From positions 1,674,001-1,738,000 of the forward strand of contig NZ_LN831029.1 in NCBI RefSeq assembly GCF_001457475.1: 64,000 nucleotides of DNA, in the 5' to 3' direction. The DNA is from Achromobacter xylosoxidans. Lineage in GTDB: Bacteria > Pseudomonadota > Gammaproteobacteria > Burkholderiales > Burkholderiaceae_B. Numbering within the stretch: the stretch's first letter is position 1; every line of letters begins with the position of its first letter. Below, piece by piece: positions 3,293 through 58,563 of the stretch. Under the pieces are notes generated by a model. The model was not told where the DNA came from. It ran no database searches and was given only the letters and a program-made list of their open reading frames with translations. The position numbers were made by a program, and so were the translations under genes.

Positions 3293-3331
3293 AAAAAGGA
3301 GAAAAGCCCCGGTTCGGGGCTTTTCTCCTTT
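3293..3331 (-). terminator. Terminator after the pyruvate dehydrogenase E1 gene
   Basis: Two perfectly complementary 17-base arms (3295-3311 and 3315-3331) enclose a 3-base loop. On the minus strand the stem runs into a short T tract. It starts 13 bases after the stop of the minus-strand E1 gene and separates it from maeB. Confidence 0.85.
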
Positions 3332-3343
3332 GCTTTCAGGGTG

Positions 3344-6031
3344 TTATTGCGCCCAGGGCGGCGTGGCGCGATCGGCCGCGCCCAGTTTGAGGCGCAATGC
3401 GTTGGCTTGCTCCTGTCGGCCCAGGCTGTCCAGCGCATGCAGCACGATCCAGTCGGCGCTGACTTCGAAGAAGTCACGCAGGCGGGCGCGGGTGTCGCTG
3501 CGGCCGAAGCCGTCGGTGCCCAGCGTGCGGTAGGGCGCGGGCACCCAGGCGCGGATCTGCTCGGGCACGGCGCGCACGTAGTCGGTCGCGGCCACCACCG
3601 GCGCGTCGCTGCCGCCCAGGCAGGCGCGCACCCAGTCCGCGTCCGGCGCGGCAGGCAGGCCGAGCGCGCGGGCGCGTTCGGCCTCGCGGCCGTCGCGCGC
3701 CAGTTCGGAGAAGCTGGTCACGCTCCAGACCTCGGCATCCACGCCGTATTCCGCATGCAGGCGCTCGGCGGCCATTTCCGCTTCGCGCAGCATGGGGCCG
3801 GCGCCCAGCAGGCGCACGGCCGCCTGCTGGCGGGCCGGGCGCAGGCGGTACATGCCGCGCAGAATGCCCTCGGCCGCCGCGCCGTCCCGCGGCAGGTCGG
3901 GCTGCGCCAGGTTTTCGTTGGTGACGGTCAGGTAGAAGAATTCGTCGCGCTGTTCGTCCAGCATGCGGCGCATGCCGTATTCGACGATCACCGCGACTTC
4001 ATAGGCGTAGGCCGGATCGTAGGCGCGGCAGTTGGGCACGGCCGCGGCCATGATGTGGCTGGAGCCGTCCTGGTGCTGCAAGCCTTCGCCGCCCAGCGTG
4101 GTGCGGCCGGAGGTGGCGCCGATGAGGAAGCCGCGCGTGCGCTGGTCGGCCGCGGCCCAGATCAGGTCGCCGATGCGCTGGAAACCGAACATCGAGTAAT
4201 AGATATAGAAAGGCAGCATCGGCAGGCCGTTGACCGAGTAGCTGGTGCCGGCCGCCGTCCACGACGAGATCGCGCCCGCCTCGGTGATGCCTTCTTCCAG
4301 GATCTGGCCGTCGCGCGCCTCGCGGTAGTACAGCACCGAGCCGATGTCCTCGGGTTCGTACAGCTGGCCTTGCGCCGAATAGATGCCGATCTGGCGGAAC
4401 AGGTTGGCCATGCCGAAGGTGCGCGCTTCGTCGGCCACGATGGGCACGATGCGCGGGCCGACCTGCGGGTCCTTCAACAGCGCCGTCAGCATGCGCACGA
4501 TGGCCATGGTGGACGACATTTCCTTGCCGTCGGCGTTGAGCGCGAAGCGGGCCCACTGCTCGGCCGCGGGCGGCGACAGGCGCGGCGCCTGCGTCCGGCG
4601 GCGCGGAATGTGGCCGCCCAGCGCGGCGCGGCGCGCCTGCAGGTGGCGCAGCTCGGCGCTGTCTTCGGCGGGACGGTAGAACTTGAGCGCCAGGCAGTCG
4701 GCGTCGGAGATCGGCAGGGCGAAGCGGTCGCGGAACGCCAGCAGCGCCTCGTCGTCCAGCTTCTTCTGCTGGTGGGTGGTCATCTTGCCCTGGCCGGCCG
4801 CGCCCATGCCGAAGCCCTTTTTGGTCTGCGCCAGGATCACGGTGGGCTGGCCGCGGTGATGCGCGGCGCGGTGATACGCGGCGTGGATCTTGACCATGTC
4901 GTGGCCGCCGCGATGCAACCGGTCGATGGCTTCGTCGGTCCAGTCGGCCACCAGCGCCGCCAGTTCGGGATTCTGGTTGAAGAAGTGGGCGCGGTTGAAG
5001 GCGCCGTCGTTGGCGGCGAAGGTCTGGAACTGGCCGTCCACCGTGTTGGCGAAGGCGCGCGCCAGGGCGCCGTTGCCGTCCCGGCGCAGCAGGGCGTCCC
5101 AGTCGCTGCCCCAGACCAGCTTGATGACGTTCCAGCCGGCGCCGGCGTACAGGGTTTCGAGTTCGTCGATGATGCGGCCGTTGCCGCGCACCGGGCCGTC
5201 CAGGCGCTGCAGGTTGCAGTTGACCACGAACACCAGGTTGTCGAGCTTTTCGCGCGCGGCCAGGGTCAGCGCGGCGATGGATTCGGGCTCGTCCATCTCG
5301 CCGTCGCCGAAGATGCCCCAGACCTTGCGGTCGCCCCCCGGCACCAGCGAACGGTGTTCCAGGTAGCGCATGAAGCGCGCCTGGTAGATGGCGTTGATGG
5401 GGCCGATGCCCATCGAGCCGGTCGGGAACTGCCAGAAGTCCGGCATCAACCACGGGTGCGGGTACGACGACAGCCCGCGCAGGCCGCGCGAGGTGGCGGT
5501 GATTTCCTGGCGGAAGTGGGCCAGGTCGTCCTCGCTGAGGAATCCTTCGAGGTAGGCTCGGGCGTAGACGCCGGGCGCCGAGTGCGGTTGCATGTAGACC
5601 AGGTCGCCCGGACCGTCGGCGCCGGCGGCGCGGAAGAAGTGGTTGAAGCCGACCTCGAACAGGTCGGCGGCCGAGGCGTAGCTGGCGATGTGGCCACCCA
5701 GCTCGCCATGGGCCTGGTTGGCGCGCACCACCATGGCCAGCGCGTTCCAGCGGTTGATGCGGGCGATGCGTTCCTCGACCGCCAGGTTGCCGGGAAAGGG
5801 CGGTTCCTGGTCGGCGGGAATGGTGTTCAGGTAGGCGGTGCGCGTCTGGCTGTTGGCGCGCAGTCCCAGCGTGGCGGCATGCCCCAGCAGGTTATCCAGC
5901 ACATAGCCGGCCCGCTCGGCGCCCGAGGCCTCGACCAGGGACTGCAGACCGTCGCGCCACTCGGCGGTTTCGGCCGGATCGGCGTCATGCCGGGGGTCTG
6001 GTCCGGCGGAGGAATGGCTGGCGTCGCACAT
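3344..6031 (-). CDS. Homodimeric pyruvate-dehydrogenase-type E1 (AceE/MdeB-like), stand-alone
   Basis: An 895-residue thiamine-diphosphate enzyme of the homodimeric E1 (AceE) family, which decarboxylates pyruvate or a related 2-oxoacid and reductively acylates a lipoyl E2. Visible are the substrate-side region SYPHPWLMPDFWQFPTGSMG, the ThDP motif GDGEMDEPES running to VVNCNLQRLDGPVRGN, and the C-terminal transketolase-like part. Length is typical (about 890). Two upstream ATGs are in frame (6058 and 6121), but 6031 has AAGGAGA ten bases ahead. No E2 or E3 gene adjoins it. The window's odhB and lpd belong to another complex, so this is probably an accessory paralogue like Pseudomonas MdeB rather than the main aceE. 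Substrate is therefore uncertain. Confidence 0.85.
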   Translation of the reverse strand: MCDASHSSAGPDPRHDADPAETAEWRDGLQSLVEASGAERAGYVLDNLLGHAATLGLRANSQTRTAYLNTIPADQEPPFPGNLAVEERIARINRWNALAMVVRANQAHGELGGHIASYASAADLFEVGFNHFFRAAGADGPGDLVYMQPHSAPGVYARAYLEGFLSEDDLAHFRQEITATSRGLRGLSSYPHPWLMPDFWQFPTGSMGIGPINAIYQARFMRYLEHRSLVPGGDRKVWGIFGDGEMDEPESIAALTLAAREKLDNLVFVVNCNLQRLDGPVRGNGRIIDELETLYAGAGWNVIKLVWGSDWDALLRRDGNGALARAFANTVDGQFQTFAANDGAFNRAHFFNQNPELAALVADWTDEAIDRLHRGGHDMVKIHAAYHRAAHHRGQPTVILAQTKKGFGMGAAGQGKMTTHQQKKLDDEALLAFRDRFALPISDADCLALKFYRPAEDSAELRHLQARRAALGGHIPRRRTQAPRLSPPAAEQWARFALNADGKEMSSTMAIVRMLTALLKDPQVGPRIVPIVADEARTFGMANLFRQIGIYSAQGQLYEPEDIGSVLYYREARDGQILEEGITEAGAISSWTAAGTSYSVNGLPMLPFYIYYSMFGFQRIGDLIWAAADQRTRGFLIGATSGRTTLGGEGLQHQDGSSHIMAAAVPNCRAYDPAYAYEVAVIVEYGMRRMLDEQRDEFFYLTVTNENLAQPDLPRDGAAAEGILRGMYRLRPARQQAAVRLLGAGPMLREAEMAAERLHAEYGVDAEVWSVTSFSELARDGREAERARALGLPAAPDADWVRACLGGSDAPVVAATDYVRAVPEQIRAWVPAPYRTLGTDGFGRSDTRARLRDFFEVSADWIVLHALDSLGRQEQANALRLKLGAADRATPPWAQ

Positions 6032-45454: not shown

Positions 45455-47176
45455 ATGCGGTGCGGTCGTCGCGGTGAGCTGTTGTTTTTCCTGGGGCCAG
45501 GGTTTCTGGTTCTCGCCGCCGTCGTTTCACCGGTTTTCGGCGCCTCGGTGCCAGAGGCGCCGACACCGCCAGCACTCTCCATCGATGCCCGCGAGCAGTT
45601 GCGCCAGCAAGAGCGTGAACGTGTCCTGCAACAGCAGAATACCCCGCGGGTCGACGAGCGCCTCCCTCGCCCTGAAGCCTCCCCATCCGATTATCCCGCC
45701 GATGAAAGCCCTTGCTTCGTCATCGATACCCTGCGGCTGAGCGGCGATTCCGCCGCCAGCTTTCAATGGGCGCTCGATGCCGCCGCCGACACAATAGGCC
45801 ACTGCCTGGGCGGCCAGGGCATCACGGCGGCCATCAACCGGGTGCAGAACGCCATTCTGGCCAAAGGTTACGTCACGACACGCGTGATGGCGCACGAGCA
45901 GGACCTCACCCGCGGCCTTCTGACATTGACGCTGCTGCCCGGTCGCGTTGGCGATATCCGCTTCGACCAGCCAGTGTCGTGGCGCGGCCGGTTATGGAAT
46001 GCCATCCCGGCATCGTCCGGCGATATTCTCAATCTGCGCGATATCGAGCAGGGCCTGGAGAATCTCAAGCGAGTCCCCAGCGCGGCCGCCGATATCCGGA
46101 TCACGCCAGGGCAGCGCGAGGCCACCAGCGACCTGTTGGTGAGTTGGCAGGAAAGCCGACCCATCCGGCTGAGCCTCGGCCTGGACGATAGCGGTTCGGA
46201 TAGCACCGGGCGTTACCTGGGCTCGGCCACCCTGGCCGTGGATGCTCCCTTCGCGCACAACGATCTGTTCTACGCCAACGTCGGCAGGGATCTGTTCCAG
46301 CATGCGCCGCTCGGCAACCGTTCACATGCCTTGAACTACGTATTCCCGGTCGGTTATTGGGCCTACTCCGTCAATTACAACAACTACGCCTATCACCAGA
46401 ACATCCCCAGCGCCAACGAAGTACTCCGGTACAGCGGAAAAAGCGCGAGCCTTCAGGCCGCCGTGTCACGGCTGGCATATCGCGACCAGTCCCACAAGAC
46501 CACGCTCAACCTGCGTGTGTATCGCAAATACTCCACCAATGCCGTCAATGACATCGCCATCGAGCAGCAGCGGCGCCGCACGGCCGGATGGGAGTTCGGC
46601 GTCAACCAGCACAGCTATCTCGGAAGCGCCACGCTGGATGCGAACCTCGGCTGGCGCCACGGCACCGGCGCATTCGGCGCCCTCGCGGCGCCCGAGGAAG
46701 CGTCGCGTAGCGGCAGTGCCCGCGGCGGTGTGCTGTCGGGCGACGTAAGCCTCAATCAACCCTTCGCCTGGGGCAAGCAGCCTTGGCGATATCTGGCGAT
46801 CGTCAGGGGCCAATGGAGCCCGGACGCGCTGACGCCACAGGAACGCATGGCCATTGCCGGCCGTTATACGGTGCGCGGCTTTGACGGCGAGCAGACACTG
46901 TCCGGCGAGAACGGCCTGCTCTGGCGCAATGAACTGGCCTGGAACGGGCTTTCATCCAGCGATGCGCTGTATGTGGCTTTGGACTATGGGTGGGTAGGCG
47001 GCCAGGGCGCCCGATATCTGGTCGGACGCCAGTTGGCGGGCGCAGCCTTGGGCGTGCGGGGCGCGCTCTGGAAAAAACTTGGCTATGACCTGTTTGCCGG
47101 CGTGCCCCTCTACAAGCCGCGTGATTTCCACACCGCGGCAATGACGATCGGATTCAGCATGAATCTGGAAATCTGA
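45455..47176 (+). CDS. cdiB: Two-partner secretion outer-membrane transporter CdiB (FhaC/ShlB family)
   Basis: A 573-residue TpsB protein that exports CdiA across the outer membrane. It has a signal peptide (about residues 1-29), a Gln/Arg-rich periplasmic helix (REQLRQQERERVLQQQ), two POTRA domains (about 85-235) and a 16-strand barrel whose conserved loop-6 motif is VRGFDGEQTLSGENG. AAGGAG precedes the ATG. cdiA begins 25 bases after its stop, so the two are one operon. The CDI name rests on the toxin-bearing partner. By sequence alone, FhaC or ShlB would be equally apt. Confidence 0.93.
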   Translation: MRCGRRGELLFFLGPGFLVLAAVVSPVFGASVPEAPTPPALSIDAREQLRQQERERVLQQQNTPRVDERLPRPEASPSDYPADESPCFVIDTLRLSGDSAASFQWALDAAADTIGHCLGGQGITAAINRVQNAILAKGYVTTRVMAHEQDLTRGLLTLTLLPGRVGDIRFDQPVSWRGRLWNAIPASSGDILNLRDIEQGLENLKRVPSAAADIRITPGQREATSDLLVSWQESRPIRLSLGLDDSGSDSTGRYLGSATLAVDAPFAHNDLFYANVGRDLFQHAPLGNRSHALNYVFPVGYWAYSVNYNNYAYHQNIPSANEVLRYSGKSASLQAAVSRLAYRDQSHKTTLNLRVYRKYSTNAVNDIAIEQQRRRTAGWEFGVNQHSYLGSATLDANLGWRHGTGAFGALAAPEEASRSGSARGGVLSGDVSLNQPFAWGKQPWRYLAIVRGQWSPDALTPQERMAIAGRYTVRGFDGEQTLSGENGLLWRNELAWNGLSSSDALYVALDYGWVGGQGARYLVGRQLAGAALGVRGALWKKLGYDLFAGVPLYKPRDFHTAAMTIGFSMNLEI

Positions 47177-47201: not shown

Positions 47202-50200
47202 ATGCAATACCGCTACCGCTTCGCTTTCATCCTGTGGACCGTCTGGCTGGCGGGTTTGGTCATGCCTGGCAGGCCGGCGGCCGCGGACGGAATCGTTGCC
47301 GACGGCGCGGCGCCAACCGGGCAGCGCCCGCATGTGGTGACCACGCAGAATGGTCTGCCGCAAGTCAACATTGCCGCGCCCGATCAGGGCGGGTTGTCGC
47401 ACAACCGGTACCTGCGGTTCGACGTGGATCGGCGTGGCGCGATTCTGAACAACTCGGCCACGATGACCTCCACCGGGTTGGCCGGGATGATCCAGGGCAA
47501 TCCCAACTTCGGTCCGAACGGCGCCACGGCGCGTGTCATTCTCAATGAGATCAACAGCAGCAATCCCAGCATGCTGCGCGGCTTCATGGAGGTGGCGGGC
47601 GACAAGGCGCAGGTCATCGTGGCCAATCCGTCGGGCATTGTGTGCGATGGCTGCGGCACGATCAATGCGGGGCGCATGACGCTAAGCACCGGCAGTCCGC
47701 AGCGCAACGCCGACGGCAGCCTGGCGGGATTCCAGGTCGAGCGGGGCGTCGTGCGCATCGAAGGCGGCGGCCTGAACGGCGATGCGCGCCATGACACCGC
47801 CTATGTGGACATCCTGGCGCGCGCGGTCGAAATAAACGCCGGCGTCTGGGCCAGGGAGGCCGTGTCGGTGATAGCGGGGCGCAACCGCGTCAGCGCCGAT
47901 GCGAAAACGGTCGCGCCGCTGGGCGCTGAAGCCATGACGCCGCAACTGGCGATAGACATGGGCCAGCTGGGCGGCATGTACAGCGGCCACATCCGCATGA
48001 TTGGCACTGAGGCCGGAGTGGGAGTGCGCAATCAGGGCGGGCATCTGCAGGCGGCGGGAACGCTGACGGTCAGCAGCGAAGGCAGGCTCAGCTGGCTATC
48101 CGGTTCCACCGAGGCAGTGACCCAGGCGGGCGGTGATATTTCCCTGGCGGCGCGGGACGGCCTCGAGCATCACGGCAAGCTGTATGGCGGCGGCGCGCTG
48201 TCGGTCGCAAGCCGGACCGGGAACATCGAACAATCCGGCACGCTGGCGGCCGCGGGTGACGTCCGGCTGACGGCCGGGCAGGGCATCCAGAGCCGCGGCA
48301 ACCTGCTGGCCGGCAGCGACATCAACAGCTCGCTGACTCGGATGGCGGACCTGGTATTGACCAGCCAGCAGGACGTGCGGGCCAGCGGCAATCTGCTGAG
48401 CCGGAAATCAATCGATATAAAGGGCAACCGCATCGACCTGAGCCAGGGCACGCTTGCGGCAGACCAATTGCGTATCCACGCGCAAGACGGCGAGATCGCG
48501 CTGCGGCAAACCACGATCGACAGCCGCCGGTTGGCGTTGGGCACCACCGGGGCCATCGATGCGCAACAGGCCAAGGTCCGAGCCGGCAGCTGGCGGGTCG
48601 GTGGCAACAGCCTGCTCAACCAGGCCGCCGTCTGGACCCAGGTGGAAGACGGAGAAAGCCGCTTCGCCTTGACGGGGGTGTTGGACAACAGCGGCGGCGT
48701 GATCGAAGCCCGCCAATTGGAGCTGGATGCCGGCTCCCTGGACAACCGACAGGGACGCCTGGTGATGCTCGGCGGTGGCGCATCACATGGGCGCATCGCT
48801 GGCCTGCTGGATAACCGCGGCGGCGAACTGGGCGGCAATGGTGACCTGGCGCTGAGCGCCGCAAGCATGGATAACCGGTCCGGCATGATCTCCAGCGCGG
48901 AGTCGCTGGACGTTGTGTCAGGTGGTGATTTCCACAACAGCGAAGGCACGCTGCGGGTTGGCAAGGGGCTGAAATTGAATGCCCAGGGCGTGCTCGACAA
49001 TGCCAGCGGAATGATTGCCGCCGCGCAGGTCGATGTGACGGCGCAGCGCGTCCGCAATAGGCAAGGGCAACTCATTGGCCAGGGCGACCTGCGCCTGACG
49101 GCGCGGCAGGCGCTGGATAACGCGCAGGGCTGGCTCGAAGCCGGGCGGACACTGTCGGTCCAGGCAGGCGGCCATTGGGATAACCGCGACGCGACCGCCC
49201 TGGGAGGCGAGCAGGTCCGGGTGACGGTGGACGGGCTCGATAACACCGCCGGAAGGCTGCAATCGGGCGGCGACCTGCGCCTCGGCACCTTCCACGATCT
49301 CGTCAACCGGCAGGGCATCCTGACGGCCGGGCAAGCGCTGACCTGGCAGGGCGGCGCGGCAAGCCTGCTCGACAACGGCGCGGGCTCGCTGCAAAGCGGC
49401 GGCGCCATGTCGTTGACGGGAGGAGCGCTGCGCAATCTCCACCAAGGCGTCGTCCTGAGCCAGCAGGCGTTGGCGTTGACGCTGGACGGAACGCTGGACA
49501 ACCAGGGCGGCATGCTGACCGGCCACGGCCAGATGGCGGTTCGTGCCGGGCAGTTGCGCAACGCGCAAGGCAGCATCCAGTCGCTCGCCAGCCTGGATCT
49601 CTGGTTCGCGGGCGCGTTGGACAACGGCGATGGCCGTATTTTCAGCCGCGAAAGCCAGCGGTTGCATGCGCAGGACATCCTCAATACGCAAGGGTGGATG
49701 GGCAGCCAGGGGGAGTGGTCCGCCGTCGGTGGCGCGTTCAGCAATCGGGACGGGTCGATACAGACGCTGGGCGACGCCACGCTTGCCGCGAATGCCCTGG
49801 ACAACGGCAAGGGCGCGCTGCGGTCGGCCGCAAATCTGACGCTGCGCGTTGCGCAGGACATCGATAACCAGGCCGGCGACATCAGCGTCGGGGGGCGGCT
49901 GGACGTGCAAGGCGCCGAGGCGGGCGCCCGCGCCGGCGCCCTCAACAACGCCGCGGGGCGGATATCGACCGGCGCGGGATTGGCGCTGGCCGCGCAAGGC
50001 CTGGACAACACGCGGCAGGGCCTGATTCACAGCGAGCGCCAACTGCGGCTCGACCTGGGCGAATCGCTGGACAACCGCGACGGCCACGTGCAAAGCGGCG
50101 AGGCCTTGCAACTCGATGCGCGACAGGTGCTGAACGAAGGCGGCGCAATCGACAGCCAGCGCGAGCTCGATCTACGCATTGTCGGACGATTGGGCAATGA

Positions 50201-53200
50201 CCGTGGAGCCGTGCGCAGCAATGGTGATCAGCGGATCGTTGCTGCCCGGGTCGGCAATCGGGCTGGCGTTTTCAGCAGCCGGGGCGGGCTGGCCGTGGTC
50301 GCCGATCACCTGAACAACGCCGATGGCATGTTCATCAGCCAGGGGGCGGGCGACTACCGCGTTGCCATGCTGGATAACCGGCAAGGCAAGATGCACAGCG
50401 GCGATGCCCTGACGCTGAACAGCGAGCAACTGGACAATCAGGCCGGCCAGCTGGTTGCCACCAGGACATTCCTGCTGGATGCGGCGCGGCTGGACAACAG
50501 CGGGCGCGGCAATATCACCAGCCAGGAGCGGCTGAACATCACGGCAGATTGGTTGAACAATAGCGATGGCGGCCTGTTGCTGGGGGCAATCCATACCGGC
50601 GTGGCGGCCCGCTCGGTGGACAACACGTCGGGACGTTTGCAGAGCGTCGGCAGCCTCACGCTGTCGGGACTGGCGAGCCTGGACAATCGACAGGGCAGCA
50701 TCCAGGCCAACGGGGCGCTGCGGATCCAGGCGGACGAAGCGGATTCGCCTTCCGCGCTGTTCCTGTTCAACCAGGGCGGGTTGGTGGAAAGCGCTGGCAC
50801 GCTGGCCATCGATGCCCATGCCCTGGACAACCGGGCGGGCACCCTGCGCAGCCAGGACGCGCTGTCCCTTTCGATCGGGCAGGACTACACCCACCAGGCC
50901 GGTGACACGATCAGCAGTAATGCCCAGGCCACGCTTGCCGTGGATGGCGCGTTGACCAACCAGGCCGAATGGCTGTTGCCGGGCGATCTTGTCGTGCACT
51001 CCACGCACTTGACCAACCAGGGATCCCTGGCGGCCAGGCACTTGCAAGTGACGACGGGCGCCTTGCGCAACCAGGGGCGGCTGGAAGCCGACCGCATGGC
51101 GCTCGATGTCGATACGCTGGACAACGCCGCGAGCGTGATGGGCGATGACGTCGCCGTGCGTGGCCGCGTGATCGACAACCATGGCCGCGATGGCGTGGTC
51201 GCCGCGACGCAGCAGCTGTCGTTGCAGGCCCGGGAACGGTTGAGCAACCGGGACGGCAGCCTGCTGTATAGCGGCGGCGCGCTGAACCTGGGCAGTGGCG
51301 ACCTGCTGGAGAACCGTGCAAGCGTCATTGAAGCCGATGGCGACGTGGCGATCGAAGCCAAGCGCCTGGAGAACCTGCGCGAAGGCCTGGTGATCGCCCG
51401 GGACGCGCAGACAGATCCCGCCACCAAGTGGCAACGCTACAACTACTACTGGCGTTCCTACGGCTCCAAGGTCAACCCCGACCTGAGCAGCGTGGCGCCC
51501 ACCACGCAACGCCTGACCTTCCAGGACGAGGATGCCGCCAAAAGCAACCCGTACGGCACCCTGTTGGCGATCGATGCGCCGGCCAAACGCGCACAGCTGC
51601 GGGTCCGCAACCGATGGGGGAAGCTGACCGACCTATGGGTCAACTATCTGGCGTTGGTGCCTGGCGCGGATGGCAGCTATGCCATGACCTTCTACGAAAC
51701 GCGCGGGCATCGGCAGGGCCTCGTGCCGACGCCGTATCAAAACACCGTCTGGCGCGAGTTCGACTGGGGGCGCCTGGAACAGTGGGATCCGGAAAGGCAC
51801 GTCGATATTGCCGCCGCGCCTTTCGTGACCGATTACAGCAATTTCCGCGAGCGCACCGTCACCAGCACCGTCACGCGCGACAGCCTGGTATCCGAAGGCA
51901 CGGGCGCCCGCATCCTGGCGGGCGGCGACATGGCGTTGCGCATCTCCGGCAGCCTGTTGAACGACGCCAGCGTCATCACCGCAAACGGCAACCTCGATAT
52001 CCCTGATGACGGCGTGGTCGACAACCGCGGGTATTCGGTGAATGAGCGGCGCCAGGAAATCATTGTCGACCACTACGACAAGGATACGGTGCACTGGTAT
52101 CCGACCTTCAATCGCGACGTCACCACGGCGCTGAGTACCGTCGATGGAATCATCAGCGGCAATGGCAACGTCACCATCCGCGGCGCCAGCATCACCAACA
52201 CCACAGTCGCGCAGGCGCAGATCAGCGACGTGGCCGCCGCATTCGAGGCGGTGCAGGCCGAACGCGCCGAATGGGAGCGCAACCCGCTGGCGGTCACGGT
52301 GCCGGACGCGGACCGCATCGACGGCGATACACAATTGGCGAGCGACCGTCCGCTCCTGCCCGCCGAACAGGCGTTGACGCAGAAGCGGCATTTGCGCCGC
52401 GTGGCGACCTCGATCCCGGACAACGGCCTGTTCCGCCAGCCCGCGGCCCAGGACAGCCCATACCTGGTCGTGACCGATGCCCGCTTCACCAGCCGCAGCG
52501 GATTCATCAGCAGTGATTATCTGCTGAAGCAGGTCGGGTTTGATCCGGCGCGGGCGCACAAGCGCCTGGGGGATGGCTTCTACGAACAGCGCCTGGTGCG
52601 GGAACAGTTGCTGCAATTGACCGGGCGGCCGTCCGTGCGCGGTGAAAGCGCGATGGACCAGTACCAGGCGTTGATGGCCAATGGCGCAAAAACGGCGCAA
52701 GACCTGCAACTGGTGCCAGGCGTGGCCTTGACGCCTGCCCAGATCGCGGCGCTGCAGCAGGATATCGTGTGGATGGTGAGCGAATCGGTCGATACCGCTA
52801 CCGGTCCGCAGACCGTATGGGTGCCCAAAGTCTACCTTGCCGCATCCACGCTGCGCCTTACTGGCGATGGCGCGCTGGTTGGCGGCGGCGCCCTTCAGCT
52901 GTCGGCAGGCAGCGTCGATAACGCGGGCAATCTCTTCGCCGACCGGGCGCTCGGGATCGATGCGGACCAGTTCCTGCATCGAGGCGGTGATATCAAGGCC
53001 GACCGCATCGATATACAGGCGGATCACCTGGCAATCAGCAGCAATCTGCAGGACGCGTTGCGCCAGGCCAGCATGAGCGCCACCGACATTGCCTTGAGCG
53101 GCGGTGACATCCGTTTGCGGGGCGCCAGGCTGGACGCCACGCACGACTTGAACCTGAGCGCGCGTGACAGCCTGGACATCGGCGTCGCGCAGAGCCGCCA

Positions 53201-56200
53201 CACTGCCAGCGTCGACGTGATTTCCGGCGCCATGGGCAACCGCACCCGTTCGGGCATGGAAACCGCCGGCCAGCGGATGGCGCAAGTCAGCGGCGAATGG
53301 CAGCAGTCGCAGGGCAGCGGCCTGAAGGCGGGCAACAACGTCAGCGTGACGGCGGGGCGGGATCTGGTCCTGCAGGGCAGCCAGGTCGCCGCGGGCGGTT
53401 CGGCGCACTTGCAGGCCGAGGGCGATGTGCGGTTGTCGGCGGCCTCCACCACCAACACGACCCGGCTCAAGGCCGGCAGCAGCACGTCTTCGGTCGACAA
53501 CCAGCGGGAAGAGCAGCGCTTGAGCCTGGCGAGCGTGAGCGGTGATAAAGGCGTCACAGTACTGGCGGGCAACGCCGCCGTGCTGGAAGGCGCGCAGGTC
53601 GACAGTCGGCAGGGACACATAAGCCTGGAGGCCAACGACGTCTCCGTCGGCAGCGCGCGTCGGCGCGTGACCGATCAGGACGTCGAGCATACGCGTGACG
53701 GCAAGACCAAGGGCTGGCGCGAGATGGAATCGTCGCGCAATGAAGCCACCGGCAGCACGCTCAGTGGCCAGGATGGCATAACGATCGTCGCCCGCACTGG
53801 CGATATCGCCGTGACGGCCAGCACGCTGCACAGCGAGCAGGGGGATCTCGCCCTGCAGGCGCGGCAGGATGTGCGGATCGCCAGCAGCACCGAGAGCGAG
53901 ACGCGGCAGTCGCGGGAACACGCCGAGAAAAAAGGCTTCCTGCGCAAAAGCGGCAGCGATACGGTCAAGGACGACCGCATGACGCGCGAGGCGGGCAGCG
54001 TGCTGAGCGGAGATCGGGTCAGCATCGTGGCGGGCAATGACCTGACGGTGACCGGTTCGGCCATTGTCGGCGACCGCGACGTCAATCTGCGCGCGGGGCG
54101 CGACGTCGATATTTCAGCGGCCACCGAAACCGAATCCCACTACCTGCTGGAAAAGAAGAAAAAGAGCGGATTGCTGGACAGCGGCGGCATCGGCTTCACC
54201 CTCGGCAACCAGTCCTCGCGTCACGAAGCGGACGAGCACGGCGTCATCCAGAGCCAGAGCGCCAGCACCATAGGCAGTACCCAGGGCAACGTGACCATCA
54301 CTGCGGAAAACCGCGTGCATGTCCGCGGCGCCGACCTGGTGGCGGGGACGGACCTGGACATCACTGGCGACAGCGTGCGTATCGACCCGGGCTATGACGA
54401 GCGTACCCGCCACGAGACCTTTGAATCGAAACAACGCGGCCTGACCATCGCGCTGTCGGGAACGGTGGGCAGCGCGCTCAACACCGCGGTCAGCGCGGCT
54501 CGGCAGGCCGGGCAAGAGAGCGACGGGCGGTTGCGGGCGCTGCAGGGCGCCAAGGCGGCGCTGTCCGGCGTCCAGGCCGCGCAGGCGCTGGAGCGGGACG
54601 ATCTGCTGACGCAAGCCGCCGATGCAAAAAACACCGCGGCAGGCCTGAGCGCCGGCGACAAGGATGCGGCGCAGGGGGCGACCAACACGATCGGCGTCAA
54701 CATTTCCTATGGCAGCCAGTCGTCCAAAACCGAAACGCGCAGCGAGAGCCGGCGCGCGCAGGGCAGCACGCTGAATGCGGGGCGGGATATCTCGATCACC
54801 GCCACCGGCGCGGGCAGGGGGGCCGACAGCGGCGATGTCGTGTTGGCCGGCACCCGGGTCAAGGCCGGCGGTGACGTGCTGCTTTCGGCCGACCGCGATA
54901 TTGAATTGCTGTCGGCGCGGAACGTCGAGCGCATCGACGGCACAAGCAGCAGCCACGGCGGCAATGTCGGCATTGGCATCGGCGCGGGCGCCGGGGGCTA
55001 CGGCATCAATGTATCGGCCGGCGTCAATGCGGGCAAAGGCCGCGAAAAAGGACGTGGGCTGACCCATACCGAGACCTCGCTGGACGCGGGCGGCACGGTG
55101 ATGTTGGCCAGCGGTCGGGACACGCTGCTCAAGGGCGCGCAGGTCGGCGGTGAATACATCGAGGTCAACGCCGACCGCAATCTGACGTTGCAGAGCGAGC
55201 AAGACAGTGACCATTATTCCGCGCGCCAGCGCGACATCAGCGCGGGAGGCAGCTTCAGCTTCGGCTCGATGAGCGGCACGGCGAACATCAGCGCCAGCCA
55301 GGACAAACTGCGCAGCGACTTCGATTCGGTCAAGGAGCAGACGGGCCTGTTCGCGGGCCGGGGCGGCTACGACATCAACGTGGGCCATCACACCCAGCTG
55401 GATGGCGCGGTGATCGCAAGCACGGCCGGCCCGGACCAGAACCTGTTGGATACCGGCACGCTGGGTTGGCGCGACATCGACAACCGGGCGGACTTCCAGG
55501 CGCGGCACAGCGGCGGTTCGATGGGAACCGGCGGGCCGGTGGGCAAGGACCTGTTGACCAATGCGGCCGGCGGCATGTTGTCCGGCGCCAATCACGGGGG
55601 GCATGCGTCGGGCACCACCCGGGCGGCGGTGAGCGAAGGCGGTTTACGCGTGCGCGACCAGGACAACCAGCGCCAGGACGTGGCGGAACTGAACCATGAC
55701 GCGGCGCACGCGAACGACGGCAGCATCAGCCCGATCTTCAACAAGGAGAAAGAGCAGAACCGCCTCAGGCAGGTGCAGCTGATCGGCGAGATCGGCAGCC
55801 AGTCGATGGACGTCATCCGCACGCAGGGCGATATCGCGGGCCTGAAGGCGCAGACGGACCCGAAGGCGCTGGCCGAGGCGAGGGCACAGCTGGGCAAGGA
55901 GGGCCGGCTCTACACCGATGCGGACGTGATGGACAGGGCGTATGCCAATGCCATGAAGCACTACGGCACCGGCAGCGACCTGCAGAAAGCGGCGCAGGCG
56001 GTGACCGGCGCGCTGACGGCACTGGCGGGCGACAACCTGGCCGGCGCATTGGGCAGCGCCGCCGCGCCCTACCTGGCGACCGAAATCAAGCGGCGGATCG
56101 GCGAGGACAATCCCGCGGCCAACGCCATGGCGCACGCGGTGCTGGGCGCGGTGACGGCGCAGTTGAACGGCCAATCGCCGCTGGCTGGCGGCCTGGGCGC

Positions 56201-57191
56201 GGGCGGCGGCGAACTGGCGGCGCGGGTGATCGCGCGGCAGCTGTTTCCAGGTAAAGACCCCGACGCGCTGAGCGAAACCGAGAAGCAGCAGGTAAGCGCG
56301 CTGAGCCAGTTGGCGGCGGGAATTGCGGGTGGCCTCGCCACGGGGGATGCGGCCGGCGGCGTGACTGGCGCGCAGGCGGGCAGGAATGCGGTCGAGAATA
56401 ACAATCTGAACGCACCTCAGTTGGACGAGTTCGCGGAGCGCGCACGAGGTTGCGGCGCTCGCGGCGATTGCCATCAAGTCATCGAGGAGATGGAGCGGCT
56501 GAGTGTTGCGCAGCAGGACCGGTTGATCTCGGTCTGCGCCACCGATCCAAATGCGTGCCGGAAGGAGTATGGCGATATCCCGGCAAACAGCATGCTGATC
56601 CGCGATGCGATAGATCGTGTGCTGGGAGACAGCGATATCCCATGGCAGATGAAGGCGGATATGGGGCCTTTGCTGTCGCAGCAGATAGACGCCGAAGGTG
56701 TTGTATCTAGTACCGAGTTTGCAGAACGGCTAGCGCGCACTTATGGCATCGACAAAGAGCGGGCCGAGTTGCTGTCGGGGGCGGTGCTGGGGGCAATTAC
56801 CGGCGGAGCGGGGAAGGGGGGGAAGTCACCGGCAAAGAGCCATTCGGTACATGGCAAAGCAGGTGAGGATCACAAAGAAAATGTCCGATACCAGCCGAAT
56901 AAGGACGCAGTTGGAAAGGCGGCGGAATTTCTAGAGCGGCCTGGGTTCGGTAGTGAAATAAAAGACGCCTCCCGGAAAACGAGCCAGCACTACCACGGAC
57001 AGACTGTTTATCAAGCGGATCGTCGTATTGGTAATAATATTAGAAAAGGCGACAAATTCTATTTGGATGGGACGCATATGGATCATATTGAGGTTTTTGA
57101 TAAGCACGGAAATTTTCGGTATGTTTTAAACCTGGATGGTTCTGTTAATGATCGTAAGACGAGAGCGGCGCGTGGGAGGAATTTGAAATGA
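47202..57191 (+). CDS. cdiA: CdiA: giant contact-dependent growth inhibition toxin (FHA-type, VENN)
   Basis: A 3329-residue secreted filament. Order: signal peptide (about residues 1-28); TPS secretion domain (about 36-290; NPNFG, NPSGIVCDGC); many LDNxxG-type hemagglutinin repeats (about 490-1390); a non-repeat region with aromatic residues (about 1405-1890), the position of the receptor-binding region; a second repeat region (about 1900-2820); pre-toxin domain (about 2826-3063); VENN at 3064-3067; then a 262-residue variable C-terminus. Its entry part carries several cysteines. The final 100 residues hold DGTHMDHIEVFDKHGN, close to the D-x-x-H...E active site of colicin-E3-type 16S rRNA nucleases but with one extra residue. 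Base composition drops to AT-rich in the toxin end. The stop overlaps the immunity gene (ATGA). Confidence 0.93.
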   Translation: MQYRYRFAFILWTVWLAGLVMPGRPAAADGIVADGAAPTGQRPHVVTTQNGLPQVNIAAPDQGGLSHNRYLRFDVDRRGAILNNSATMTSTGLAGMIQGNPNFGPNGATARVILNEINSSNPSMLRGFMEVAGDKAQVIVANPSGIVCDGCGTINAGRMTLSTGSPQRNADGSLAGFQVERGVVRIEGGGLNGDARHDTAYVDILARAVEINAGVWAREAVSVIAGRNRVSADAKTVAPLGAEAMTPQLAIDMGQLGGMYSGHIRMIGTEAGVGVRNQGGHLQAAGTLTVSSEGRLSWLSGSTEAVTQAGGDISLAARDGLEHHGKLYGGGALSVASRTGNIEQSGTLAAAGDVRLTAGQGIQSRGNLLAGSDINSSLTRMADLVLTSQQDVRASGNLLSRKSIDIKGNRIDLSQGTLAADQLRIHAQDGEIALRQTTIDSRRLALGTTGAIDAQQAKVRAGSWRVGGNSLLNQAAVWTQVEDGESRFALTGVLDNSGGVIEARQLELDAGSLDNRQGRLVMLGGGASHGRIAGLLDNRGGELGGNGDLALSAASMDNRSGMISSAESLDVVSGGDFHNSEGTLRVGKGLKLNAQGVLDNASGMIAAAQVDVTAQRVRNRQGQLIGQGDLRLTARQALDNAQGWLEAGRTLSVQAGGHWDNRDATALGGEQVRVTVDGLDNTAGRLQSGGDLRLGTFHDLVNRQGILTAGQALTWQGGAASLLDNGAGSLQSGGAMSLTGGALRNLHQGVVLSQQALALTLDGTLDNQGGMLTGHGQMAVRAGQLRNAQGSIQSLASLDLWFAGALDNGDGRIFSRESQRLHAQDILNTQGWMGSQGEWSAVGGAFSNRDGSIQTLGDATLAANALDNGKGALRSAANLTLRVAQDIDNQAGDISVGGRLDVQGAEAGARAGALNNAAGRISTGAGLALAAQGLDNTRQGLIHSERQLRLDLGESLDNRDGHVQSGEALQLDARQVLNEGGAIDSQRELDLRIVGRLGNDRGAVRSNGDQRIVAARVGNRAGVFSSRGGLAVVADHLNNADGMFISQGAGDYRVAMLDNRQGKMHSGDALTLNSEQLDNQAGQLVATRTFLLDAARLDNSGRGNITSQERLNITADWLNNSDGGLLLGAIHTGVAARSVDNTSGRLQSVGSLTLSGLASLDNRQGSIQANGALRIQADEADSPSALFLFNQGGLVESAGTLAIDAHALDNRAGTLRSQDALSLSIGQDYTHQAGDTISSNAQATLAVDGALTNQAEWLLPGDLVVHSTHLTNQGSLAARHLQVTTGALRNQGRLEADRMALDVDTLDNAASVMGDDVAVRGRVIDNHGRDGVVAATQQLSLQARERLSNRDGSLLYSGGALNLGSGDLLENRASVIEADGDVAIEAKRLENLREGLVIARDAQTDPATKWQRYNYYWRSYGSKVNPDLSSVAPTTQRLTFQDEDAAKSNPYGTLLAIDAPAKRAQLRVRNRWGKLTDLWVNYLALVPGADGSYAMTFYETRGHRQGLVPTPYQNTVWREFDWGRLEQWDPERHVDIAAAPFVTDYSNFRERTVTSTVTRDSLVSEGTGARILAGGDMALRISGSLLNDASVITANGNLDIPDDGVVDNRGYSVNERRQEIIVDHYDKDTVHWYPTFNRDVTTALSTVDGIISGNGNVTIRGASITNTTVAQAQISDVAAAFEAVQAERAEWERNPLAVTVPDADRIDGDTQLASDRPLLPAEQALTQKRHLRRVATSIPDNGLFRQPAAQDSPYLVVTDARFTSRSGFISSDYLLKQVGFDPARAHKRLGDGFYEQRLVREQLLQLTGRPSVRGESAMDQYQALMANGAKTAQDLQLVPGVALTPAQIAALQQDIVWMVSESVDTATGPQTVWVPKVYLAASTLRLTGDGALVGGGALQLSAGSVDNAGNLFADRALGIDADQFLHRGGDIKADRIDIQADHLAISSNLQDALRQASMSATDIALSGGDIRLRGARLDATHDLNLSARDSLDIGVAQSRHTASVDVISGAMGNRTRSGMETAGQRMAQVSGEWQQSQGSGLKAGNNVSVTAGRDLVLQGSQVAAGGSAHLQAEGDVRLSAASTTNTTRLKAGSSTSSVDNQREEQRLSLASVSGDKGVTVLAGNAAVLEGAQVDSRQGHISLEANDVSVGSARRRVTDQDVEHTRDGKTKGWREMESSRNEATGSTLSGQDGITIVARTGDIAVTASTLHSEQGDLALQARQDVRIASSTESETRQSREHAEKKGFLRKSGSDTVKDDRMTREAGSVLSGDRVSIVAGNDLTVTGSAIVGDRDVNLRAGRDVDISAATETESHYLLEKKKKSGLLDSGGIGFTLGNQSSRHEADEHGVIQSQSASTIGSTQGNVTITAENRVHVRGADLVAGTDLDITGDSVRIDPGYDERTRHETFESKQRGLTIALSGTVGSALNTAVSAARQAGQESDGRLRALQGAKAALSGVQAAQALERDDLLTQAADAKNTAAGLSAGDKDAAQGATNTIGVNISYGSQSSKTETRSESRRAQGSTLNAGRDISITATGAGRGADSGDVVLAGTRVKAGGDVLLSADRDIELLSARNVERIDGTSSSHGGNVGIGIGAGAGGYGINVSAGVNAGKGREKGRGLTHTETSLDAGGTVMLASGRDTLLKGAQVGGEYIEVNADRNLTLQSEQDSDHYSARQRDISAGGSFSFGSMSGTANISASQDKLRSDFDSVKEQTGLFAGRGGYDINVGHHTQLDGAVIASTAGPDQNLLDTGTLGWRDIDNRADFQARHSGGSMGTGGPVGKDLLTNAAGGMLSGANHGGHASGTTRAAVSEGGLRVRDQDNQRQDVAELNHDAAHANDGSISPIFNKEKEQNRLRQVQLIGEIGSQSMDVIRTQGDIAGLKAQTDPKALAEARAQLGKEGRLYTDADVMDRAYANAMKHYGTGSDLQKAAQAVTGALTALAGDNLAGALGSAAAPYLATEIKRRIGEDNPAANAMAHAVLGAVTAQLNGQSPLAGGLGAGGGELAARVIARQLFPGKDPDALSETEKQQVSALSQLAAGIAGGLATGDAAGGVTGAQAGRNAVENNNLNAPQLDEFAERARGCGARGDCHQVIEEMERLSVAQQDRLISVCATDPNACRKEYGDIPANSMLIRDAIDRVLGDSDIPWQMKADMGPLLSQQIDAEGVVSSTEFAERLARTYGIDKERAELLSGAVLGAITGGAGKGGKSPAKSHSVHGKAGEDHKENVRYQPNKDAVGKAAEFLERPGFGSEIKDASRKTSQHYHGQTVYQADRRIGNNIRKGDKFYLDGTHMDHIEVFDKHGNFRYVLNLDGSVNDRKTRAARGRNLK

Positions 57192-57928
57192 TTAATATAA
57201 ATAAAATAAAATTAATGTTGCCGAAATTGCATGTTATGTTCGGAATTGGTGGCGATTTTGTGGGCGCTGATTGGAGCATTGACTATAGTTTAAATTTGGA
57301 TGATGAGTTTAATGAGGATGTTGCAGAGCTTGGTTTGGCGATAAATTTCCTGAGCGCGGCTGTGCGGAAGTCTGATCTCCCTGCGATCATGTGTGCATTG
57401 GTGAGGGTGAGGGGGCGCTCAAATATTGCCGAGGGATTCTTTGCGAATATCGTGGAAGACCTCGACCGGGTTGGTTGGTCCGAGGGAGGGAGGCTGCGCG
57501 ATGTGCCAAAAACATCTGCTGTTCCTGAGATTTATGAGTTATGCAAAAGTTACATGTTTGATTTTAAAGGATTCAACGAGCTTAAATTTGTAATGCCCTG
57601 CCTGTATGAGTTGTCAGGTTTAAAAAAAGGGTTTTTCAGTGAAAATTGGAAGATTGATTACACGTCGAATCTAGATGGTGAATTTAGTGGTGAAGTGGCG
57701 GACTTTCAGATGCATTTGGATGCCCTGGACGAGGCTGTAAGAATTAATGACTTGGTGGCGGTTAAGTACGCACTAGCGATGGCTCGATCTTCCTCGAGGG
57801 CGCTTTCGGACTTCTTTGAGCGTATTTGTGATGACATTGAAAATATCGGGTGGGCTGACGACAGGCCATGGGCCGACATTCCAGAGGACTATGAATTGCC
57901 GGCGTCCTACAACTATTCCGGTAAGTAG
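57188..57928 (+). CDS. cdiI: Probable CdiI immunity protein, tandem-duplicated domain
   Basis: A 246-residue cytoplasmic protein whose ATG overlaps the cdiA stop, the standard place for the cognate immunity gene. I recognise no known family. It consists of two copies of one domain: residues 5-108 and 130-233 align without gaps at an offset of 125 (WSIDYSLNLDDEF with WKIDYTSNLDGEF; EDLDRVGW with DDIENIGW), by eye about one third identical. Both copies are acidic, as expected for a partner of a basic nuclease. The gene is AT-rich with codon use unlike the flanking chromosome, a sign of horizontal acquisition. It bears no likeness to the 85-residue colicin E3 immunity protein. Confidence 0.8.
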   Translation: MININKIKLMLPKLHVMFGIGGDFVGADWSIDYSLNLDDEFNEDVAELGLAINFLSAAVRKSDLPAIMCALVRVRGRSNIAEGFFANIVEDLDRVGWSEGGRLRDVPKTSAVPEIYELCKSYMFDFKGFNELKFVMPCLYELSGLKKGFFSENWKIDYTSNLDGEFSGEVADFQMHLDALDEAVRINDLVAVKYALAMARSSSRALSDFFERICDDIENIGWADDRPWADIPEDYELPASYNYSGK

Positions 57929-58000
57929 CGAGAAAGGCATGGGTTGTCAATATCATCTGCCCTGGCTACAGGCTGCGTGCTGAAGCTGGCATGTAGGTGA

Positions 58001-58165
58001 CCGTGACGCGGCGCACGCGAACGACGGCAGCATCAACCCGATCTTCAATAACGAGGTAGTCAGGAGAATTTGTTGGATGATCTGCTGGAGTTGGATAAGG
58101 TTGCCTATGAGAAATTTATAGCCATTCTGAAATCGGAAGGGATGTTGGATGATGATTTTTATTAA
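58001..58165 (+). pseudogene. Displaced cdiA fragment plus remnant ORF
   Basis: Bases 58001-58055 repeat cdiA bases 55694-55748 with 4 mismatches, encoding the pre-toxin motif DAAHANDGSINPIFNNE in the same sense. After this the match stops and the frame closes at once. A different frame (58052-58165) then encodes a short acidic tail ending KSEGMLDDDFY, perhaps from a TTG at 58070 or 58073 behind AGGAGA, perhaps the end of a lost gene. This is what a displaced, decayed cdiA C-terminal module would leave behind. Confidence 0.65.
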
Positions 58166-58224
58166 GTGAAAATCTTTATCTAGGCTGTGTTGGGCGTGAA
58201 ATTACGGTAACCCGGGAGAGATGG

Positions 58225-58563
58225 GTGAGGCTGAGAGGAACTCGTACGGAATTGACGATCAGGAATCAACTGATAGCGTCCGATTTGTCGATAAAGAAAA
58301 ATGAATTGATCATGAGGTTCTTGCGAGAAAATTATGGAAAAATTGATTCAGCACAAGTTTTTGTGTGTACACCTGGTGAGGATGAGGATATATATCATAT
58401 TTTAATTAATGGCCGTTTTATTGTGCGTTTTGAGGTTGAGAGAATCTCGGGAATTATTTGTGGGGTGGAGAATAGTTCGGTTTTTGAGTATTCAAAGAAA
58501 TTAAGGGGTAGGTTAAGAAATTTAGAGATGTTGATTGCACTTGATTTGGCCAATAATCATTAA
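58225..58563 (+). CDS. Orphan small protein, candidate immunity gene of a displaced module
   Basis: A 112-residue soluble protein from a GTG start at 58225 behind GGGAGAG. ATG 58312 is an internal alternative. I do not recognise the family. The core (FLRENYGKIDSAQVFVCTPG, EDIYHILINGRFIVRFEVER) looks like a small alpha/beta protein without signal peptide or membrane segment. It is AT-rich like the toxin/immunity DNA upstream and lies just after the displaced cdiA fragment. Orphan immunity genes are typically found there. The role is inferred from position only. Confidence 0.55.
   Translation: MRLRGTRTELTIRNQLIASDLSIKKNELIMRFLRENYGKIDSAQVFVCTPGEDEDIYHILINGRFIVRFEVERISGIICGVENSSVFEYSKKLRGRLRNLEMLIALDLANNH

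Follow-up and report, generated by a model that had tools for sequence, protein, structure and literature searches.

Two fused copies of one domain make up the very probable CdiI immunity protein of an Achromobacter xylosoxidans CDI locus

The DNA analysed here, referred to as the window, is a stretch of 64,000 nucleotides from Achromobacter xylosoxidans (contig NZ_LN831029.1, positions 1,674,001 to 1,738,000) and contains a complete CDI locus in the order cdiB-cdiA-cdiI (Table 1). The transporter encoded upstream (45455-47176) combines POTRA domains with a ShlB-type barrel, CdiA is a large exoprotein with a TPS domain, haemagglutinin repeats, a pre-toxin domain, and a variable tip, and the immunity gene lies directly 3' of cdiA, its ATG (57188) overlapping the cdiA stop codon TGA (57189-57191) as ATGA. 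Because this gene comes after cdiB and cdiA and overlaps the stop codon of the latter, its 246-residue product very likely serves as the CdiI immunity protein of the locus, and from the genomic context we infer that the domain duplicated within it is an immunity domain.

Table 1 Features of the CDI locus, with positions counted from the first letter of the window
Feature	Position	Strand	Evidence
cdiB, two-partner secretion transporter of the outer membrane, 573 aa	45455..47176	+	Pfam ShlB (1.2e-96), POTRA_3, POTRA_2
cdiA, two-partner secretion exoprotein with C-terminal toxin, 3329 aa	47202..57191	+	Pfam TPS, Fil_haemagg, Fil_haemagg_2, PT-VENN
PT-VENN pre-toxin domain, CdiA residues 3020-3070	56259..56411	+	Pfam PF04829, 2.2e-16
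CdiA toxin tip, residues 3227-3329, predicted colicin E3-like RNase fold	56880..57188	+	
Shine-Dalgarno-like GGGAGGAA within cdiA, 6 bases upstream of the immunity-gene start codon	57174..57181	+	Read from the sequence
cdiI, fused two-domain immunity protein, 246 aa	57188..57928	+	
Copy 1 of CdiI, residues 1-118	57188..57541	+	Profile of 13 single-domain homologues, 94.0 bits
Copy 1 tail, partly degraded, residues 103-116	57494..57535	+	4/9 tail positions conserved in singles retained
Inter-copy linker, residues 119-127	57542..57568	+	Gap between the two profile matches; model pLDDT <50 over 98-128
Copy 2 of CdiI, residues 128-244	57569..57919	+	13-homologue profile, 104.1 bits; DUF6853 E 4.6e-4, under cut-off
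Copy 2 conserved C-terminal tail, residues 229-246	57872..57925	+	6/9 tail positions conserved in singles retained

The CdiA tip is probably a ribonuclease, to judge from its predicted structure, which shows the colicin E3 ribonuclease fold. Among 35 aligned tips, D63 was conserved in 34, H66 and E71 in all 35, and R100 in 34 with one gap, and these residues were compared with the motif R, Dxx[HK], E, H. The tip had no Pfam match up to an E value of 5, and neither the window tip nor its relatives had an NCBIfam match up to an E value of 1; since no toxin model of either collection matched, we speak of an E3-like fold and not of a Tox-ColE3 member. One relative is named YxiD, an identity that was considered for the toxin and set aside, the YxiD described in the cited part of PMC12700104 being an Ntox50 protein of BECR fold. 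Net charges are -6 and -11 on the immunity side, versus +7 for the toxin tip.

Our comparison of the two halves of the immunity protein confirms what a first-pass annotation had proposed, namely two tandem copies of one domain, aligned gap-free at an offset of 125 residues with W29/W154 and the NLD, EF, FF, and GW motifs in register. Residues 5-108 and 130-233 share 36 of 104 positions, and the likeness extends slightly beyond the earlier claim, to residues 116/241; the best ungapped stretch (residues 5-116) scores 200, and the runner-up among the offsets scanned (20-219) scores 38. Alignment statistics, which had been named as a possible refutation, demonstrate instead that the halves are homologous: gapped local alignment scored 200 when the protein was cut at 120 and 201 when it was cut at 125, and none of 5000 shuffles reached the real score at either cut (maxima 60 and 59). 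Independently, the profile built from 13 single-domain homologues detects two domains in the chain and no more. Judging by sequence divergence, the duplication within cdiI is not recent, because the copies are 51% identical at the DNA level.

A survey of 268 genomes of the bacterial family located the window's toxin tip at nine loci, where the partner is a fused two-domain protein in four cases, a single-domain protein in four, and a pair of adjacent separate genes in one. A related immunity gene adjoins the tip at all nine, and at eight of them the toxin and immunity genes overlap by 4 or 8 bases, the ninth having a broken toxin frame; this placement fits the immunity role assigned in the first-pass annotation. 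Its statement that such proteins are normally single-domain holds for many members, since this toxin family also has single-domain partners, but fused proteins are not rare in this bacterial family. With a fused partner at four of the nine tip loci and single or paired genes at the others, the fusion is old and recurrent. A comparison of separate and single origins of the fusion in the Achromobacter-like genus and Oligella rejected neither (AU p 0.247), and the fused state may have arisen repeatedly.

Six distinct fused alleles were identified (P0001/P0002, P0003, P0004, L006, L020, and L024), each with exactly two profile matches and thus with more than one immunity domain per chain, as in polyimmunity proteins. 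L003 carries a pair of distinct, adjacent immunity genes that share 44% identity; the second has its tail in another frame and was excluded from the 13 singles and scored as a motif miss. P0017, a 90-residue fragment of a protein nearly the same as the window protein but with a different end, was omitted from the counts; L002, an aminotransferase-like gene, was dropped as a false match, and a weak NCBIfam match of P0001 to alanine aminotransferase (E 0.02) was set aside. On Duffyella plasmids, too, a related immunity gene follows a toxin of this family, and further toxins of the family with a member of the immunity family behind them occur in distant bacteria and among orphan toxin-module arrays. 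A search of 5.8 billion proteins with P0001 yielded three matches among 767 candidates, and the source genome was the only match both in an order-level genome sample (1/399) and in a class-level one (1/369). There was no match in plasmids for the P0001 or L020 immunity protein, in phages for the toxin tip or P0012, or in E. coli genomes for a Duffyella stretch.

The tail IPExYxxP is conserved at the C-terminus of single-domain members, and its motif is present in 17 of 18 singles; this tail and its uneven retention between fused copies are new here. Conservation was scored over 48 core and 9 tail positions, with counts given in the order window protein, P0003, P0004, L006, L020, and L024. Core positions retained are 30, 32, 29, 32, 15, and 21 in copy 1 and 28, 29, 25, 26, 17, and 19 in copy 2, and tail positions retained are 4, 5, 0, 0, 3, and 0 in copy 1 and 6, 5, 7, 8, 8, and 7 in copy 2. 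The tail of copy 1 is thus reduced to 0-3 of 9 positions in four of the six fused proteins, and that of copy 2 retains 5-8 in all six. When core and tail column labels were shuffled, the contrast was reached in 0 of 20000 permutations for the six proteins and in 11 of 20000 for the first four, a test over columns that overstates independence because the fused proteins are related. The exceptions are the window protein and its closest relative P0003, with 4 and 5 of 9 positions held in copy 1, which in P0003 is no fewer than in copy 2 (5); the asymmetry is therefore weak in the window protein itself. If the last proline is not required, the tail motif is also matched in copy 1 of these two proteins (2/6), a partial retention. 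In L006, copy 2 lacks the equivalents of W29 and Y33 and copy 1 has lost all nine tail positions, so neither copy amounts to a complete single-domain protein. As core positions are retained in both copies of all six proteins, neither copy appears to be a relic, and the equal conservation of copy 1 and copy 2 counts against the earlier suggestion that one copy is active and the other a decoy.

No named family had been recognised in the first-pass annotation, which is not wholly accurate, since P0003, 77% identical to the window protein, exceeds the cut-off of DUF6853 (PF21593) with 33.8 bits. The window protein itself scores 21 bits, under the Pfam gathering cut-off of 27 bits, and P0004 (23 bits), the L003 proteins (26.1 and 22.4 bits), and L005 (21.9 bits) also remain under it; by these scores it appears distantly related to DUF6853 and was not assigned as a member. 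A search of 200 genomes of the bacterial family with the DUF6853 profile gave one match, below the cut-off, and did not return the source genome itself at E<=0.01. In the literature searched, no paper was found that mentions DUF6853 or NMB0488, and the papers found on 3NYM, judged by title, concern structure-prediction methods. The structural model of the immunity protein is poor (pLDDT 59.6, below 50 for residues 98-128), with an unreliable arrangement of the copies. Because Foldseek returned nothing for it at E<=0.001 and the VIA list held mainly helical bundles, both designed and natural, with the same Z, its fold was not used as standalone evidence.

We tentatively propose, with slightly less than even confidence, that CdiI acts as a covalent pseudo-dimer with a single main site for one toxin, and not as two independent immunities. 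A single-domain immunity gene present in two adjacent copies would have given rise to it by fusion, and the product would shield the producer and its kin from killing by the CdiA tip. Its acidic helical domains would rest on the basic toxin, the tail of copy 2, where IPExYxxP is best retained, would form the toxin contact common to all alleles, and copy 1, with its helical core retained, would stabilise the protein or contribute to its toxin-specific surface. In a more far-reaching version, which we consider somewhat unlikely, the copies would have split the work of the single-domain ancestor, the better-retained helical core of copy 1 providing specificity and the tail of copy 2 reaching the toxin's invariant site. 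The complete binding site would then need both copies, and neither half would protect alone; in that case single genes could no longer reverse the fusion.

Each copy might instead bind one toxin molecule independently, two per chain, as would agree with their similar profile scores, with the partial tail in copy 1 of the window protein and P0003, and with the homodimeric CdiI proteins of NC101 and Kp342, which take one toxin per subunit in the account given by PMC9086364. We regard this as unlikely, given the copy 1 tails of only 0-3 of 9 positions in four of the six proteins and an L006 protein with no complete single-domain copy. The copies could also recognise different toxin alleles, the current one and a former or neighbouring one, and so broaden protection, a breadth that Zhang et al. 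2012 propose for polyimmunity proteins (PMC3482391). Copies 1 and 2 do separate on a tree of four fused proteins (91/89), L003 presents a pair of different neighbouring genes, and between the window and L006 alleles the toxin end was swapped along with the immunity gene. However, that exchange moved the toxin end and the whole immunity gene as one cassette, suggesting that the two copies go with a single toxin, and polyimmunity proteins usually lie in toxin-less operons according to the cited part of PMC3482391, whereas the window gene stands directly behind its toxin; the probability of such bispecificity therefore seems rather low. Both ideas, moreover, meet copies that are non-equivalent in four of six fused proteins, with the tail intact only in copy 2.

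It is very unlikely that copy 2 does all the work and copy 1 persists as a neutral remnant of the fusion, even though the copy 1 tail is reduced in four of six proteins and single-domain relatives cope on their own with the same toxin family. A relic should have decayed, yet copy 1 cores match copy 2 cores in conservation in six of six proteins despite allele divergence to <=40% identity, and copy 1 has been lost at none of the four fused loci of the family scan. We see hardly any chance that the gene encodes a small protein of other function merely located after cdiA: DUF6853 is without known function, and its name appears in no paper of the literature searched, but the recurrence of this toxin family followed by an immunity-family member in distant bacteria and orphan arrays, and the acidic charge of the protein against a basic toxin, speak for immunity.

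Returning to the pseudo-dimer, the conserved tail predicts the site of a toxin contact common to all alleles, and the helical DUF6853-related family, without recorded function, would gain a likely role in immunity to E3-like CDI toxins. One gene, two neighbours, and a fused gene behind one toxin tip form a natural series suited to asking why the domain was doubled, with stability, two binding sites, breadth, and division of labour as candidate reasons.

Among the closest known systems are DUF6853 (PF21593) with the solved N. meningitidis MC58 protein 3nym, and the single-domain relatives from Bordetella sp. LUAb4 (L005), a Bordetella petrii-named contig (L021/L023), Duffyella plasmids (L011/L012/L014), and P0005-P0016. 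These relatives share the domain and tail with the window protein but have one copy versus two, and those at L005, L011-L014, and L021-L023 also sit behind the same toxin tip. The colicin E3-type systems compared were Imm-Cloacin, Imm45, and the CdiA-CT/CdiI of Enterobacter cloacae (4ntq); PMC3482391 classes the first two as alpha+beta, unlike the all-helical window protein. Tandem polyimmunity proteins have already been described (Zhang et al. 2012, PMC3482391), with several immunity domains per chain, including tandem SUKH domains and Imm73 "in 2-3 tandem copies", and the window protein is therefore a variant of a described kind. It resembles them in having tandem copies of one immunity domain in one chain and, set against those in the cited part of that article, differs in that its gene overlaps its toxin gene, its domain is another, all-helical one, and its copies differ in the tail. 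Among the papers listed, none deals with a two-domain CdiI, judged by title, and one may still be in print; neither the NC101 nor the Kp342 CdiI was among the matches of the PDB sequence searches. These two are known as homodimers in which two immunity subunits act together, as proposed for the window protein, and the NC101 protein is likewise all-helical; as described in PMC9086364, their dimers are non-covalent and bind one BECR-class toxin per subunit, whereas the window copies are covalently fused.

The window carries a complete CDI locus with a fused immunity gene, and the features of the locus are collected in the table below. The start codon of the immunity gene overlaps the stop codon of cdiA in the sequence ATGA, GGGAGGAA sits six bases ahead of this start codon, and the gene is present in single copy in its own genome. 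From about 65-70% in cdiA, the GC content drops to 41-45% across positions 57000-58499, and such a drop is usual for exchanged toxin-immunity cassettes.

Features of the CDI locus and of the region behind it
Feature	Coordinates	Location or strand	Description
cdiB	45455-47176	upstream	ShlB and POTRA domains
cdiA	47202-57191	upstream	TPS domain, haemagglutinin repeats, PT-VENN at residues 3020-3070
Toxin tip	56880-57188	C-terminus of CdiA	predicted colicin E3-like RNase fold
Immunity gene	57188-57928	+	open frame, 246 residues
Older cdiA remnant	58005-58055	behind immunity gene	DAAHANDGSI.PIFN.E, matching CdiA at 15 of 17 residues
Short frame	58052-58165		ends KSEGMLDDDFY; probable tail of a displaced module
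Low-GC frame	58225-58563		112 residues; perhaps an orphan immunity gene

The first-pass annotation had described the immunity protein as two tandem copies of one domain, and this was confirmed. Residues 5-108 and 130-233 align without a gap at an offset of 125, with 36 identities in 104 positions, and the alignment of one half against the other scores 200-201, as compared with a shuffle maximum of 60 (cut at 120) or 59 (cut at 125; n = 5000). A profile built from 13 single-domain homologues recognizes exactly two domains, at residues 1-118 and 128-244. At the DNA level the copies are 51% identical, and the duplication is therefore old.

The fused form recurs. Searching 268 genomes of the window's family with a toxin profile yielded nine loci in six genomes, and the architecture was read from the gene downstream of each locus. 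Four of the nine encode a fused protein (window, 246 aa; genome G208, 245 aa; genome G125, 251 and 244 aa), four a single-domain protein (G077, 120 aa; G123, two of 114 aa; G183, 114 aa), and one (L003, in G077) has separate neighbouring genes for 119 and 97 aa; its toxin frame is broken, as is the second immunity gene at its end. Within the genus, the tip was found in 2 of 43 genomes, both of which encode the fused protein. One G125 tip is identical to the Oligella ureolytica protein P0108.

The toxin tip family is widespread, with 173 matches in Gram-negative and Gram-positive carriers, and scans of Pfam and NCBIfam returned no model for it. Transposase genes, IS3 type by appearance, lie directly upstream of a G125 toxin module on the opposite strand (L024, 1522-2624). 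In the Duffyella plasmid loci L011, L012 and L014, orphan toxin-immunity modules and VENN pieces form arrays, and L012 has the single-domain immunity gene a second time, away from the toxin (3310-3645).

A column counted as conserved if at least 11 of 13 single-domain relatives keep it; this gave 57 columns, of which the helical core holds 48 and the C-terminal tail (LP..PE.Y.IP..Y.Y) 9. The core is kept in both copies of the fused proteins, and the tail is best kept in copy 2.

Conserved columns kept in each copy of six fused proteins
Protein	Core of 48, copy 1	Core of 48, copy 2	Tail of 9, copy 1	Tail of 9, copy 2
Window	30	28	4	6
P0003	32	29	5	5
P0004	29	25	0	7
L006	32	26	0	8
L020	15	17	3	8
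L024	21	19	0	7

Shuffling of column labels matched the core/tail contrast in 0/20000 trials for the six proteins, 11/20000 for the first four and 3/20000 for L020 and L024 alone, counts that are not true probabilities because the fused proteins are related. The motif [IVL][PS][ED].Y..P is present in 17 of 18 single-domain relatives, the exception being a broken gene, in 5 of 6 second copies and in 0 of 6 first copies; minus its final proline, it also occurs in two first copies, those of the window and P0003. In L006, the tryptophan and tyrosine of W.I.Y are lost in copy 2 and kept in copy 1. The copies are thus clearly non-equivalent in four of the six proteins, and the tendency is weak in the window's own.

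The immunity protein is acidic (-6 and -11) and the tip basic (+7), and on the basis of these net charges the former would bind the latter. In the favoured reading, each chain would be a pseudo-dimer with one main binding site. Homodimeric CdiI proteins are known from NC101 and Kp342, where each subunit binds one toxin (PMC9086364), and the fused protein may be a covalently joined pair of this kind with one site given up. A bivalent protein is less likely but possible, as is a bispecific one.

A tree built from four fused proteins and single-domain relatives has a branch that parts first copies from second copies (support 91/89), a pattern as after one duplication and fusion predating the split of these four alleles. 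Once the very divergent G125 proteins were included, a single origin was neither demonstrated nor rejected (AU p 0.247). Compared with L006 in 60-base windows, the window has a DNA identity of 0.88-0.98 that begins at about 56648 and holds up to 57127, falls to 0.65 at 57128 and is 0.37-0.65 through the immunity gene; the toxin end and the whole immunity gene were therefore exchanged as one cassette. Identity is back to 88.7% from 58621 onward.

Where the window has the older cdiA remnant, L006 has larger ones, and a remnant behind its immunity gene ends KSQGKLDDDFY, which resembles the end of the window's short frame. The low-GC frame occurs in 2 of 43 genus genomes, its own and G181, where the counterpart is 41% identical and lies beside a haemagglutinin-like fragment; its sole domain match, to NERD, was sub-threshold.

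A literature search of limited coverage found no title on DUF6853 (PF21593), a distantly related Pfam family, or on fused or tandem CdiI. For colicin E3-type toxins, Imm-Cloacin and Imm45 are listed as immunity proteins (Zhang et al. 2012, PMC3482391); the pairing of an E3-like tip with a helical domain related to DUF6853 is new, as are the series from single through neighbouring to fused genes and the unequal tail between copies. The same work describes polyimmunity proteins, among them some with one domain repeated in tandem. Tandem copies are common to both systems, but those proteins are usually found in toxin-less operons, whereas the tandem form described here is placed directly behind its own toxin, which is new.
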